Positions 4,984 to 8,971 of a stretch of DNA of 39,363 bases are shown piece after piece; position 1 is the first letter of the stretch, and every line of letters starts with the position of its first letter. A program made the position numbers and the translations under genes. A model generated the notes under the pieces. That model saw nothing but the letters and a program-made list of their open reading frames with translations, searched no databases and had not been told where the DNA came from. Location: the NCBI GenBank assembly GCA_016868785.1, contig VGFS01000019.1:1-39363 (forward strand), given 5' to 3'. The stretch is from Bacteroidota bacterium. Lineage in GTDB: Bacteria; Bacteroidota; Bacteroidia; NS11-12g; UBA955.

Positions 4984-5108
4984 GCGGCGGCAATCCGCCG
5001 CGGGAAGTCGATGCAATCTTCCTATGGAAATCAATGGTATTTATTGCAGGTCCTGGGATTCCGCCACAGGGAGGTTGTTTGAATCCGCCGCAGGAAGTCG
5101 ATGCAATC
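4984..5108. repeat. Short repeat cluster: 27-bp direct repeats plus GC hairpin
   Basis: Two copies of a 27-bp repeat lie at 4992-5018 and 5082-5108. Both run AATCCGCCGC-(G/A)-GGAAGTCGATGCAATC and differ at one base; 63 bases separate them. A partial degenerate copy (GATTCCGCCACAGG) lies near 5058-5071. The first copy overlaps a hairpin GCGGCGG-CAAT-CCGCCGC (4984-5001), preceded by an imperfect palindrome near 4956-4976. The second copy contains the last base positions of the lipoprotein stop codon. The pattern is that of small dispersed intergenic repeats rather than a CRISPR. Confidence 0.7.
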
Positions 5109-5694
5109 ACATCACCTTGTAGGGGAAGGTTACTTCAACGTCGGTTTCTCCCACACCACAGGTGCCATTTTTGATCCCGGGCTGATGTTTTAATCGAACC
5201 ACTACCACCCCGAAATCTTTGCCCAAGGTTTTCCATTCTGTACTCAAGCCAATGGGTAGGTTGTTGGCATCTTTGTCGGTGGCCGTGATGGTTAACCCCA
5301 CCGGTGGCATGGTGATGCTCGACACTTCATAGCAAACGAAATGGCCTTCGGCCTCGTTTTTTATTTCCAAAGTGATGTCTTCCATCTTCCCATTCTGCTC
5401 ATTTAAAAATGTTAACATACCTAGGTAAGGACTTCCACCCGTGGTAACTTGTCCGATTTTAATGGTGTCTGGCAATACCGGAGCATTTCCGCCCACACCA
5501 TCGAGGTCTTGCCAAGTGTACACTGAGGGTGTTCCGCCGGCCAAACCCAGTGAAAGTTTCACCGTGGTGATGAGTTCGCCTTCCTCTTCCTCCGGACTGC
5601 AGGCGCTGAAATTTAGGGCTGAAAAAAGGGTTGCGAAAGCGAATACTAAAAAGTTGAAATGTTTGATTTTTTTGTTTTTAATTTTGTTTTTCAT
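5107..5694 (-). CDS. Surface-type lipoprotein partner of the TonB receptor
   Basis: 195 residues. The N-terminus has basic residues, a hydrophobic segment and a lipobox-like FSAC at about residue 32. The mature protein starts CSPEEEEGE, an acidic stretch after the Cys that resembles the Bacteroidota lipoprotein export signal for surface display. The mature part has TWQDLDGVGGNAPV, a motif I recall from a lipoprotein family encoded next to His-rich TonB receptors and often annotated as type 1 periplasmic binding fold superfamily protein. It may capture ligand or assist the receptor at the outer membrane. I chose ATG 5694; the longer frame from 5811 lies inside the receptor gene and would bury the signal peptide. 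The gap to the receptor gene is 28 bases. Confidence 0.85.
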   Translation of the reverse strand: MKNKIKNKKIKHFNFLVFAFATLFSALNFSACSPEEEEGELITTVKLSLGLAGGTPSVYTWQDLDGVGGNAPVLPDTIKIGQVTTGGSPYLGMLTFLNEQNGKMEDITLEIKNEAEGHFVCYEVSSITMPPVGLTITATDKDANNLPIGLSTEWKTLGKDFGVVVVRLKHQPGIKNGTCGVGETDVEVTFPYKVM

Positions 5695-5722
5695 AAAGTT
5701 TGATTTTAAAATTTGTTTGTTT

Positions 5723-8266
5723 TTAATCGATGCTTGTTGATGAATTGTTTGAATGGCGACGCTCATTGTGCTGCATGCCTTCATGTTTGTGCTCATGGTG
5801 ATGGTGCACATCGTACAGCCATTTGATGCCCACGTTCATGCCAGATTGATTGGTGAAATACCGGAATCGATCCATATAATCACGGTATGCTTTGTTGCCC
5901 AAATTCTCGCCGTAAATCACCCAATGTGCGTGTTGGTCGTGTCCTCTCGTATTCAATTGCAATTGAGCATTTACCAGTACATAACCATTTGGCGGTGGCA
6001 AAAAATCGCTCCCCGGCGTATAGAATGGTTGTTTGCCCACGCCCACAGTTTCAAGCAACAATGTGGCCTGAGACCAACGCTTGTTGATTTGGATGCTGCC
6101 TTTCGGACAAGGTAAGAAATTGGGGTACCGCACATCCTTGCCTTGCTTAAATCGCGCATAAATTCCACCTGCTCTCAATGCGATTTGTAAACCTCGATTG
6201 GCCCATTTTTGTGAATACTGGATTTCGGCGCCGGCATACTGCGTGGGGAGCTGTTTGTATTCATAGCCAGGGAAAGCGCCTCGGACGGTTAAAATGGGTG
6301 TGGCCATCGGGAAAAGGGCAATGAAATTCTGAGATTGTTGATAAAACGAGGTTGCCCGGATTTCTTGGGTTTTACCTGTTTTCAACCACAATAGTTCGAT
6401 TTTCTGTCCTGTTTCCGGCTTCAGCGCGGCGTTGCCTTCTTCGTAGGAAGCGGCCCCATGATGAACGCCACGGGTGTAAAGTTCGTTTACACTAGGGACT
6501 CGCCAGAGCTGGCTTAAATGAAGTTGCCATTGTTGATTGCCCATTTCCTTGATCAACGAATAGGCCGCGGACGGACCAAAATTGCGCTGCCATGTTTCTG
6601 TTGTTTGTCCGGTCGATTTGGGGAAGACGTTCCGAATCAAATAATCACTTCTCAAAACCAAGCTATGTTGTGCACGCATGTTGCGCGTATTGCTGATATG
6701 CCAATGGACATTGGGCTGCCATTGCTGGTAATCCGGCAGAAAATAATAGCCGGCATATCGTTGCCACTGGCTGGTGTTTTGAAATACCCATTTTGATTGC
6801 CATTTACTGGTTGGTCGGATTCTTGTAATGCCCGTATATTGATTGATCGTGCCTTGCCACAAGTTCAACTGTGCGAATGTTTTTGTACTGCTTCGGTGGG
6901 GGTCATACTCCCAGCGTTGGTTTATTTGTACTGCGAATTTGTGGTGTACGATAAATTTGTGCAGCACCTCATTTCGGTTGTTGTAACTGGCTTGAAAATG
7001 CCCCGCTTGTTGCATCGGTTTTTGAATGCGGTAGCTGAAGGGCACGTCTTGAAGCGGCTCTGTTCTTTGCATGGCCAGCAACAAATCATTGACATTCCCG
7101 ATGTGACTTTCAGAGAAAATGCCACCGCGGAAAAAATAGACTTTTGCATGAAACTCACGCTCGGCTTTGGCCTTTAATCCCCAATAGCCCCTTTGGCTGT
7201 TCCACAGGTTGCCATACGACACAGTCGCCTCTCGGGTTGCGGTATTGCTGAGTGTGTGAGTTGGCGTGTTATAGTTCCCGGTGATTTTTCCTGAATAAAG
7301 CCAATAATGACCTTTCCCGTAGGGATGTTGAAGCAATCTCGATGAGTTCTCTGTCCATTGTCCGGGACGTTGTTTTTCTCTTCCCTGTATATACCTGCCA
7401 GCAACCTGAATTCCACCCCCATTGGATTGGGTTGATAACAGTTGGGTATAATCACGATTGAACTGGTGGAAATCATAATGGTTCACCAGATTGATGGCGT
7501 TGCCCCAAGCATCCGCGGCCACTGCCAGTGCCTCGGTTCCCCGTAGTAATTGAACCGTTTTTGCTCCCCATAGATCAATTTCAGGAGCGTGATCTAGCCC
7601 CCAAGTTTGTCCCTCTATCCTAAAGCCATTGTTCAAAATCGGCAATCGCTGACCAAACATACCTTGTACCACAGGTTTGCCAATCCCCATACCGGTGGAA
7701 AGGGTTTTGGCCATTGGTAGGGGCTCTAGCGATCTGGCGAGATTTTGCAAGGGCATCGCTTGGAGTTGTGTACTGAGAAGGGCATCACCTTGTGTGTTGA
7801 CGCGGGCGCGCACTTGTGCCAAAGGAAGCGTCTCGGTTAGGAATTGTTGGCTGGACAGATACTCTGTTTTCGATACAACAAAGGTGCTATCCCTGTCTCC
7901 GTTTAAAACAACAACGAATAAGCTCCGATTTGCGGATTCTTCAGCTGATTTGCATAACAATGTCAGATGATGGTGTTTTCCTTGGTGGTTGATTTCTACA
8001 TCAGTTGTGATAGCACACAAGCCTTTTAATGTGGCATAGCCGTTGGCATCGGCATGGGCGATGGAGTGGCTTAACTCTACGAAAATTTCGGCACCATCAG
8101 CGGGTTTGTGGAAAATACCTGTAGCGCTATCCCCGTCTTTTATGGGGGCTTGGGGCAATTCTGTCAGGATTCGTAAATGCAAAAAATAGGGACAATCCAT
8201 TCTCTGGGCGACACTGTCGCCAAGACAAAAGAGCGCTATCATGAAAATGAAAATCCTTTGAAACAT
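5723..8266 (-). CDS. TonB-dependent outer-membrane receptor with His-rich C-terminal tail
   Basis: 847 residues with signal peptide (MFQRIFIFMIALFCLGDSVAQ). A roughly 130-residue N-terminal region, partly a carboxypeptidase-regulatory-like beta domain, precedes the plug (around residues 180-265: VVQGMFGQRLPILNNGFRIEG, cut here to its core, then DHAPEIDLWG and VQLLRGTEALA). A 22-strand-type barrel follows. TonB receptors usually end with an aromatic residue of the last strand; here IKWLYDV is followed by about 30 extra residues with eight His in HHHHEHKHEGMQHNERRH. Family, His-rich tail and neighbours suggest uptake of a transition metal (zinc or copper) or metal chelate across the outer membrane, energised by TonB-ExbBD. 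The exact ligand is not determinable. Confidence 0.93.
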   Translation of the reverse strand: MFQRIFIFMIALFCLGDSVAQRMDCPYFLHLRILTELPQAPIKDGDSATGIFHKPADGAEIFVELSHSIAHADANGYATLKGLCAITTDVEINHQGKHHHLTLLCKSAEESANRSLFVVVLNGDRDSTFVVSKTEYLSSQQFLTETLPLAQVRARVNTQGDALLSTQLQAMPLQNLARSLEPLPMAKTLSTGMGIGKPVVQGMFGQRLPILNNGFRIEGQTWGLDHAPEIDLWGAKTVQLLRGTEALAVAADAWGNAINLVNHYDFHQFNRDYTQLLSTQSNGGGIQVAGRYIQGREKQRPGQWTENSSRLLQHPYGKGHYWLYSGKITGNYNTPTHTLSNTATREATVSYGNLWNSQRGYWGLKAKAEREFHAKVYFFRGGIFSESHIGNVNDLLLAMQRTEPLQDVPFSYRIQKPMQQAGHFQASYNNRNEVLHKFIVHHKFAVQINQRWEYDPHRSSTKTFAQLNLWQGTINQYTGITRIRPTSKWQSKWVFQNTSQWQRYAGYYFLPDYQQWQPNVHWHISNTRNMRAQHSLVLRSDYLIRNVFPKSTGQTTETWQRNFGPSAAYSLIKEMGNQQWQLHLSQLWRVPSVNELYTRGVHHGAASYEEGNAALKPETGQKIELLWLKTGKTQEIRATSFYQQSQNFIALFPMATPILTVRGAFPGYEYKQLPTQYAGAEIQYSQKWANRGLQIALRAGGIYARFKQGKDVRYPNFLPCPKGSIQINKRWSQATLLLETVGVGKQPFYTPGSDFLPPPNGYVLVNAQLQLNTRGHDQHAHWVIYGENLGNKAYRDYMDRFRYFTNQSGMNVGIKWLYDVHHHHEHKHEGMQHNERRHSNNSSTSID

Positions 8267-8302
8267 GCAGTTTGGTTTAATTACTTCGTAGAATCGAGGC
8301 CA

Positions 8303-8635
8303 TTAAACGCAGGGAGGTGCTTTGTTTTTGGGTTGTTCAAAGGAAATTAAAATCAGCAAAGGCACGTTGGCCGATGGGGTGATTCTTTTAGATAATTGCG
8401 GTTGAGTAACTGGATGGAAAAGAGCAACATCTGCCACCACTTTGGTAAAATCGCAAGCTGCGCAATCTTCCGAAATATGGGATTGAGCATCGCATTCATG
8501 CGAATGGAAGTGTGCATCACTGTGATTGTGGAGATCTGTCCAATTAAAATCGAAGTGTTTGTGTTGGTTGTTTCCTTGGAAAACAATGAAAAGCAGAATG
8601 CAGAATCGAGCGATATGGGCACGAACCCCTTGCAT
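8303..8635 (-). CDS. Small secreted His/Cys-rich protein upstream of the TonB receptor
   Basis: 110 residues. An N-terminal hydrophobic stretch (FCILLFIVFQ) looks like a signal peptide or anchor. It is followed by a His/Asp-rich region with HKH, HNH, HFHSH and then CAACDF, a CxxC pair. About ten His and four Cys lie in the first 65 residues. The composition suggests metal binding in the periplasm or outside the cell. The C-terminal half is hydrophobic (VPLLILISF) with a terminal Cys. I recognise no named family, but small His/CxxC proteins are known beside metal-related TonB receptors, and the gene lies 36 bases before the receptor. The start ATG 8635 is nine bases after the stop of the 108-aa gene. 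Confidence 0.75.
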   Translation of the reverse strand: MQGVRAHIARFCILLFIVFQGNNQHKHFDFNWTDLHNHSDAHFHSHECDAQSHISEDCAACDFTKVVADVALFHPVTQPQLSKRITPSANVPLLILISFEQPKNKAPPCV

Positions 8636-8644
8636 GGTTGATTT

Positions 8645-8971
8645 TTAGGCGACGGATTGCAGCTGATTGGTCATTTCGCGCAGTTCGTCGCGGTTGAGGG
8701 CGTTTTCTGAGCGCACGATCAACGACAAAAAGTATACGAAATTCTCCTCAGGCGTTTCAATTTCTTCAGCCAAATCGATGTCAAAAGCCTCGTTGGCTTC
8801 AACGTGTTGCCAAGCCAAACGCAATGCGCGTGTTATCAAGGGATCGTTTTCTTTCAACGCATGTTCGCGGGCCGCTTGCAAAGGGCTGATGATTTTGTCG
8901 GCATTGATACCGCTTTTCTCTACGCTTTCGATAACGCTGTTTATGAGGTCGTTGGCTTCTTTGGTACGCAT
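8645..8971 (-). CDS. Conserved hypothetical protein, 108 aa, first gene of the metal-uptake run
   Basis: A soluble, acidic, all-helical protein (AREHALKENDPLITRALRLAW, shortened here to its centre LKENDPLITRALRLAW; IDLAEEIETPEENFVYFL). No signal peptide, membrane span, Cys or metal motif is seen, and I do not recognise the family. It has its own promoter box 14 bases upstream and is only nine bases from the His/Cys-rich protein gene, so it likely leads the four-gene transcript, although it may simply be a neighbour. Confidence 0.8.
   Translation of the reverse strand: MRTKEANDLINSVIESVEKSGINADKIISPLQAAREHALKENDPLITRALRLAWQHVEANEAFDIDLAEEIETPEENFVYFLSLIVRSENALNRDELREMTNQLQSVA

Follow-up and report, generated by a model that had tools for sequence, protein, structure and literature searches.

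A three-gene locus within a stretch of 39,363 nucleotides (nt) of DNA from a Bacteroidota bacterium (the window; contig VGFS01000019.1 of assembly GCA_016868785.1) probably encodes a ZnuD-type importer, most likely for zinc, that works with a surface lipoprotein and is placed under a leader peptide resembling CruR. The genes lie on the minus strand and specify, in this order, a small protein rich in His and Cys, a TonB-dependent receptor and a lipoprotein, with gaps of 36 and 28 nt (Table 1). An original prediction, made from the sequence of the window, had given the same order, gaps and outer coordinates, and these were reproduced. It had read the locus as one of metal capture and handover, for zinc or copper. 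Our analysis retains outer-membrane metal uptake and favours zinc, in view of the homology of the receptor to ZnuD, including its ligand positions, and of Zur-type boxes and genes in relatives, but it does not retain the small protein as a capture partner.

A conserved pair of receptor and lipoprotein

A profile of the lipoprotein, searched in 395 genomes of the class and 296 genomes drawn from the phylum, found matches in 171 and 67 of them, respectively. Reading 79 lipoprotein loci sampled across the class with their flanks showed that a receptor of the same family adjoins the lipoprotein in 71, and the two are therefore regarded as one unit. Co-occurrence across Bacteroidota, put forward with the original prediction as a check, is thus found for these two genes, and the locus is a real, conserved system. 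The receptor gene comes first in most families and the lipoprotein gene in one clade.

When the PDB was searched with the single receptor sequence, ZnuD was the sole match. A family profile built from 18 receptors again placed ZnuD first (E 2.4e-33), followed by XusA (5e-23), the copper receptor OprC (E 2.6e-21; 40 bits behind ZnuD) and haem receptors (~2e-12). ZnuD is the zinc receptor of Neisseria, with Asp99, His100, Glu340 and His499 as zinc ligands (PMC4557270). HMMER aligned three residues of the window receptor with D99, H100 and H499 (Table 1), the 14-residue numbering offset between the chain and the mature protein having been counted by hand. All 18 receptors have His at the positions of H226 and H602, and position 225 is occupied by Asp or Glu. 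Against the NCBIfam model for ZnuD, the receptor scored 40 bits and did not reach the curated cut-off of 950; we therefore refer to it as ZnuD-like rather than ZnuD. The original prediction had drawn attention to eight His in an 18-residue C-terminal tail, and their number and place were borne out. However, the last 25 receptor residues contain 3-6 His in the window's family and mostly 0-1 His elsewhere. The His tail is thus essentially a trait of this family and does not belong to the core of the system, and we rejected it as a defining feature.

The lipoprotein had no match in Pfam, NCBIfam or the PDB and, judged by its sequence, represents an unnamed family of ~165 residues and a new receptor partner. 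The earlier statement that the locus belongs to no named system holds for this family, which is nameless in Pfam and the PDB, but not for the rest, since ZnuD, Zur and CruR/CutF are all named. In an alignment of 102 lipoproteins the lipid-carrying Cys, H118, H170 and D185 are invariant (102/102) and D140 and D142 nearly so, which makes the invariant His and Asp candidate metal ligands. C121 and C179 are both present in 43 sequences and both absent from 59, and never does one occur alone, which indicates a disulfide. The mature protein begins with CSPEEEEGE, as had been predicted, and members of the family carry on average 4.2 acidic residues among the 14 that follow the lipid Cys. Such an acidic stretch fits a surface export signal and suggests a surface location. 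A longer ORF (open reading frame) for the lipoprotein, reading to position 5811, would overlap the receptor gene. Taken together, transport of zinc by the ZnuD-like receptor with a surface lipoprotein appears likely.

Zur-type boxes and regulators in related loci

A Fur-family gene is located next to or inside the cluster in 8 of the 79 loci, where about 0.5-1.5 would be expected, and four of these eight genes belong to lipoprotein-receptor-regulator runs in which the junctions are short or the genes overlap. All eight proteins carry the counterparts of the E. coli Zur residues H77, C88 and H96. Zur was the best NCBIfam match for four of them, with all scores below the curated cut-off.

In addition, 21 of the 79 loci have the palindrome TGCAACANTGTTGCA shortly before the cluster's first gene, with at least 13 of 14 positions matching. 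Upstream DNA (28 kb) contained 22 such sites, compared to 6 in the other 869 kb (P about 3e-28); none arose in shuffles. The exact box occurs 1-5 times per genome in 13 genomes, and the reversed control had no match. Further genes behind the box encode COG0523 GTPases, DUF1826 proteins, an LCIB-type carbonic anhydrase and an FAD oxidoreductase; the box is also found before an autoregulated Fur-family gene that is oriented divergently to a MerC-domain gene. Both COG0523 and DUF1826 are established as belonging to Zur regulons (PMC2770081, PMC6103462, PMC9431628). We therefore take the box to be, most probably, an operator for Zur and the cluster to be, most probably, part of the Zur regulon in the boxed lineages; zinc is the best-supported substrate. 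The receptor tree has boxed loci both in the lipoprotein-first clade and at several places of the other large clade, and zinc control is therefore not a quirk of one branch. Inspection of the unboxed loci for other palindromes revealed no common motif.

Several neighbours of the boxes deserve mention in their own right. Membrane proteins with a MerC domain are repeatedly encoded next to the Zur-type box or behind genes that carry it (L162, L164, L168, L171, L174), making the Bacteroidota MerC proteins candidates for a zinc-related function. A thioredoxin-reductase-like FAD oxidoreductase is encoded directly behind the box in four genomes (L163, L166, L167, L174). The LCIB-type carbonic anhydrase (L169:3826-4539) is first in a boxed gene run that ends with a COG0523 GTPase, and it possibly substitutes for a zinc carbonic anhydrase.

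The small ORF as a putative metal-sensing leader

CruR, the founding studied member of DUF2946, is encoded by the first gene of the Bordetella pertussis operon bp2923-bfrG-bp2921. Its nascent chain senses copper via a CxxC motif, and its C-terminal RAPP arrests the ribosome. Copper relieves this arrest, whereupon Rho terminates transcription before the TonB receptor gene. The spacing between CxxC and RAPP is 45 residues and is conserved within one or two (PMC9426467).

The small protein of the window had no significant Pfam or NCBIfam match, and DUF2946 was weakly matched by 2 of 24 relatives (E 0.002). In the window protein, the KAPP motif ends 2 residues before the end. In all 52 proteins with both motifs, a C-terminal [RK][AGS]PP follows the CxxC at a spacing of 43 (34 proteins), 44 (12) or 45 residues (6), while total length ranges from 90 to 144 residues and the PP is followed by 1-8 residues. 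Conservation in the middle of the protein is slight, with a mean column identity of 34%, and the His tract varies strongly. A fixed spacing across a barely conserved middle fits a constraint imposed by the ribosome tunnel, not a folded carrier. Another 14 small proteins with a readable C-terminus are without the second Cys of the motif, yet all have a Cys at that distance, in several as part of HxHC. The small ORF always stands directly before the receptor or the lipoprotein gene, whichever comes first; in the lipoprotein-first clade (e.g. L106, L113, L123, L128, L132) a small ORF with CxxC and RxPP precedes the lipoprotein gene and not the receptor gene. A leader would be expected to keep its place before the pair when the gene order changes in this way; a receptor partner would not.

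The RNA behind the small ORF is structured. In the window, the 5' arm of a predicted hairpin (GUUUAAU) covers the last codon and the stop codon of the small ORF, and 8 nt separate its 3' arm (AUUAAAC) from the receptor ATG. One divergent relative has compensatory changes at two pairs of the core hairpin (A-U to G-C and U-A to C-G), but other pairs are broken in it. Junctions between the small ORF's end and the receptor start had a mean folding z of -2.25 (n=51) compared to -0.60 for 293 control junctions taken from these loci (P 4e-11). Pairing of the ORF end with RNA further downstream was predicted for 41/51 junctions versus 144/293 controls (P 3e-5). The gap after the small ORF, 36 nt in the window, has a median of 53 nt in the 51 loci.

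Based on this anatomy, we hold with good confidence that the small ORF is a metal-sensing leader, which would act by arresting the ribosome; the metal that it senses is, with somewhat less assurance, zinc rather than copper. In the mechanism that we propose, the dedicated surface lipoprotein would capture metal or gate its access at the TonB receptor, and imported zinc would cross the inner membrane via a ZIP transporter. A ribosome translating the small ORF would pause on the C-terminal KAPP and hold the 5' arm of the hairpin open, or keep Rho away, such that receptor and lipoprotein are made. Binding of metal to the CxxC/His part of the nascent chain would relieve the pause, allowing the hairpin to form and expression to fall. 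In other Bacteroidota, the same importer would be repressed instead, or also, by a Zur-type regulator.

Table 1. Features of the locus. Positions refer to the window.
Feature	Position	Strand	Remarks
Lipoprotein of unnamed family, 195 aa	5107..5694	-	Proposed surface-exposed receptor partner; lipobox Cys32, then acidic residues
ZnuD-like TonB-dependent receptor, 847 aa	5723..8266	-	
His-rich C-terminal tail of receptor	5753..5806	-	8 His in residues 821-838
Receptor H602 codon (ELYTRGVHHG)	6461..6463	-	HMMER-aligned with ZnuD zinc ligand H499
Receptor D225-H226 codons (WGLDHAPEID)	7589..7594	-	HMMER-aligned with ZnuD zinc ligands D99-H100
RNA hairpin GUUUAAU...AUUAAAC	8275..8308	-	Predicted fold
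Small ORF, 110 aa, 10 His, 5 Cys	8303..8635	-	Proposed CruR/CutF-like metal-sensing upstream ORF (arrest peptide)
KAPP codons, residues 105-108	8312..8323	-	Candidate ribosome arrest motif, 43 residues after CxxC
CxxC codons, residues 58-61	8453..8464	-	Candidate metal-sensing site; C58 and C61 invariant in 24 family members
108-aa protein	8645..8971	-	Conserved neighbour directly upstream of small ORF, probably same transcript

Genomic context and points that weigh against this view

The 108-aa gene ends 9 nt upstream of the small ORF and is kept in this place throughout the window's family, where the recurring order is eamA - 108 aa - small ORF - receptor - lipoprotein - gcvT. A Pfam search with the 108-aa protein gave no clear match. 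The genome of the window is a 2.07-Mb assembly of 79 contigs, and its close named relatives are Flavobacteriales metagenome-assembled genomes from freshwater or wastewater.

A search of this genome for the Zur-type box returned one tandem pair of imperfect boxes 38 nt apart (G000:C15:46309-46361, i.e. L200:6310-6362), a spacing also seen in L171 and L172. The pair precedes an ORF cut by the contig end (MLIETDPLVKTLDWENDTHKSTFWHTSSHLLAYALELLYPGIKLGTGPS), which we take to resemble the start of a threonyl-tRNA synthetase, although Pfam and the PDB did not confirm this. Zur targets in Anabaena include thrS2. The genome of the window encodes a ZIP transporter, and a search for an ABC-3 zinc permease found none. 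A genome of the same genus (G047) contains a lipoprotein-receptor locus of a second type (L199, G047:C13) with Zur-type boxes and a Zur-like gene; its lipoprotein is without the two cysteines.

Several observations do not favour a zinc importer under a CruR-like leader. A Zur-type box was found neither in the window nor in the DNA upstream of the locus in its family, and the search for a Zur gene in the 79-contig assembly found only a canonical Fur, encoded next to purA. With the eamA and 108-aa genes in front of it, the upstream ORF (uORF) has no obvious promoter immediately ahead. The DUF2946 model is not matched by the small protein of the window itself, and the 36-nt gap behind it is far shorter than the 162 nt of CruR. 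For the proven relatives of the uORF the sensed metal is copper, and the nearest metal-ion receptor after ZnuD is OprC. The fourth ZnuD ligand, E340, is unplaced, as the HMMER alignment does not cover that region. Lastly, structure predictions from four sequences each had a mean pLDDT (predicted local distance difference test score) of 47 for the lipoprotein and 30 for the receptor, and they were not used.

Alternative explanations

Some of these observations raise the question of whether the locus serves the uptake of copper, with an OprC-like receptor under a copper-sensing uORF and the Zur-boxed loci as a diverged zinc branch. Indeed, copper is the metal sensed by CruR, which stands at the head of OprC-type operons; OprC itself ranks among the next-best PDB matches of the receptor profile, and CxxC is a classical motif for Cu(I). 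Moreover, Zur boxes are seldom seen in loci with a uORF (4/44 versus 17/30; Fisher 1.3e-5). However, the median p-value of this negative association was 0.25 once the receptor tree was considered, and we dropped it as proof. Boxed loci and uORF loci share subclades of the receptor tree, and L075, L083, L084 and L109 carry both, which speaks against this reading. ZnuD leads OprC by 40 bits with three zinc-ligand positions kept, and the 14 uORFs without the second Cys of CxxC, several of which keep HxHC, are likewise not in favour of copper. We consider uptake of copper unlikely.

The original prediction had regarded the small protein as a secreted carrier that captures metal and passes it to the receptor. 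Its hydrophobic, export-like N-terminal segment and its content of His and Cys agree with such a role, but its conserved features are those of a uORF of the CruR/CutF type, namely CxxC, a spacing of 43-45 residues to [RK][AGS]PP and a place directly ahead of the receptor or lipoprotein gene with structured RNA directly behind. Conservation is low in the middle and high in spacing and last residues, which does not fit a folded carrier, and the His tract is highly variable; in addition, the tested analogue CutF is degraded after export. We therefore rejected the secreted capture partner, which seems very improbable. Import of haem or of a siderophore or metallophore, with the lipoprotein binding the complex as XusB does, is to be viewed with equal scepticism. 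The weaker PDB matches do include haem receptors and XusA, and ZnuD itself resembles haem receptors. However, the best match and the ligands are those of ZnuD, homologous loci carry Zur-type boxes and a regulator, and the lipoprotein matches no Pfam family and is thus not the DUF4374 protein that XusB is.

Significance and relation to known systems

If the locus is a zinc importer under a CruR-like leader, Bacteroidota gain a zinc importer that is present in about a quarter to two fifths of the sampled genomes, together with a searchable Zur operator and an unnamed lipoprotein family. Our search of the open literature found no description of an outer-membrane zinc importer or a Zur regulon in Bacteroidota, the only related work found being that on ZntR in Riemerella, and a 2018 review of Zur regulons does not mention Bacteroidota. 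Metal-sensing leader peptides, so far known for copper, would then be able to replace Zur for a zinc-type importer, and whether a nascent chain can sense zinc becomes directly testable. It is conceivable, though we would not count on it, that the small ORF is the first zinc-responsive arrest-peptide leader, exerting post-transcriptional control of a zinc importer in place of Zur in such lineages, and that the lipoprotein represents a new surface zinc-binding family. The type of leader is not new in itself, because a survey noted that CutF-like genes are common in Bacteroidota, often before TonB receptor genes (PMC9973294).

The components can be compared with systems that have been described. 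Like ZnuD, which is regulated by Zur, the window receptor has a homologous plug and barrel and retains the ligand positions D99, H100 and H499, and some loci of its relatives have a Zur-type box; unlike ZnuD, it has an extra N-terminal domain before the plug, a lineage-specific His tail and an obligate lipoprotein neighbour. The leader shares with CruR a small, exported-looking ORF directly before a TonB receptor gene with a third gene after it, as well as CxxC, a spacing of 43-45 versus 45 residues and an [RK]xPP just before the stop. Points of difference are a KAPP in place of RAPP, a much higher number of His, the lack of a DUF2946 match for the window protein, a shorter gap (36 versus 162 nt) and a zinc-type receptor downstream. 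CutF of Rhodobacter capsulatus is also a nascent exported protein with a Cys motif, a proline-rich C-terminus and an RNA hairpin before the next start codon. However, copper turns a copper oxidase on in that case, whereas here metal would turn uptake off. The TonB transporters of Bacteroidota that are capped by a surface lipoprotein (XusAB, BtuBG, SusCD) likewise pair a TonB receptor with a co-encoded lipoprotein whose lipid Cys is followed by an acidic stretch, but the window lipoprotein comes from an unrelated, unnamed family with invariant His and Asp. What sets the system apart is thus the combination of a ZnuD-like receptor and a new lipoprotein partner, apparently controlled by a CruR-like leader in the window and by a Zur-type repressor in other lineages.

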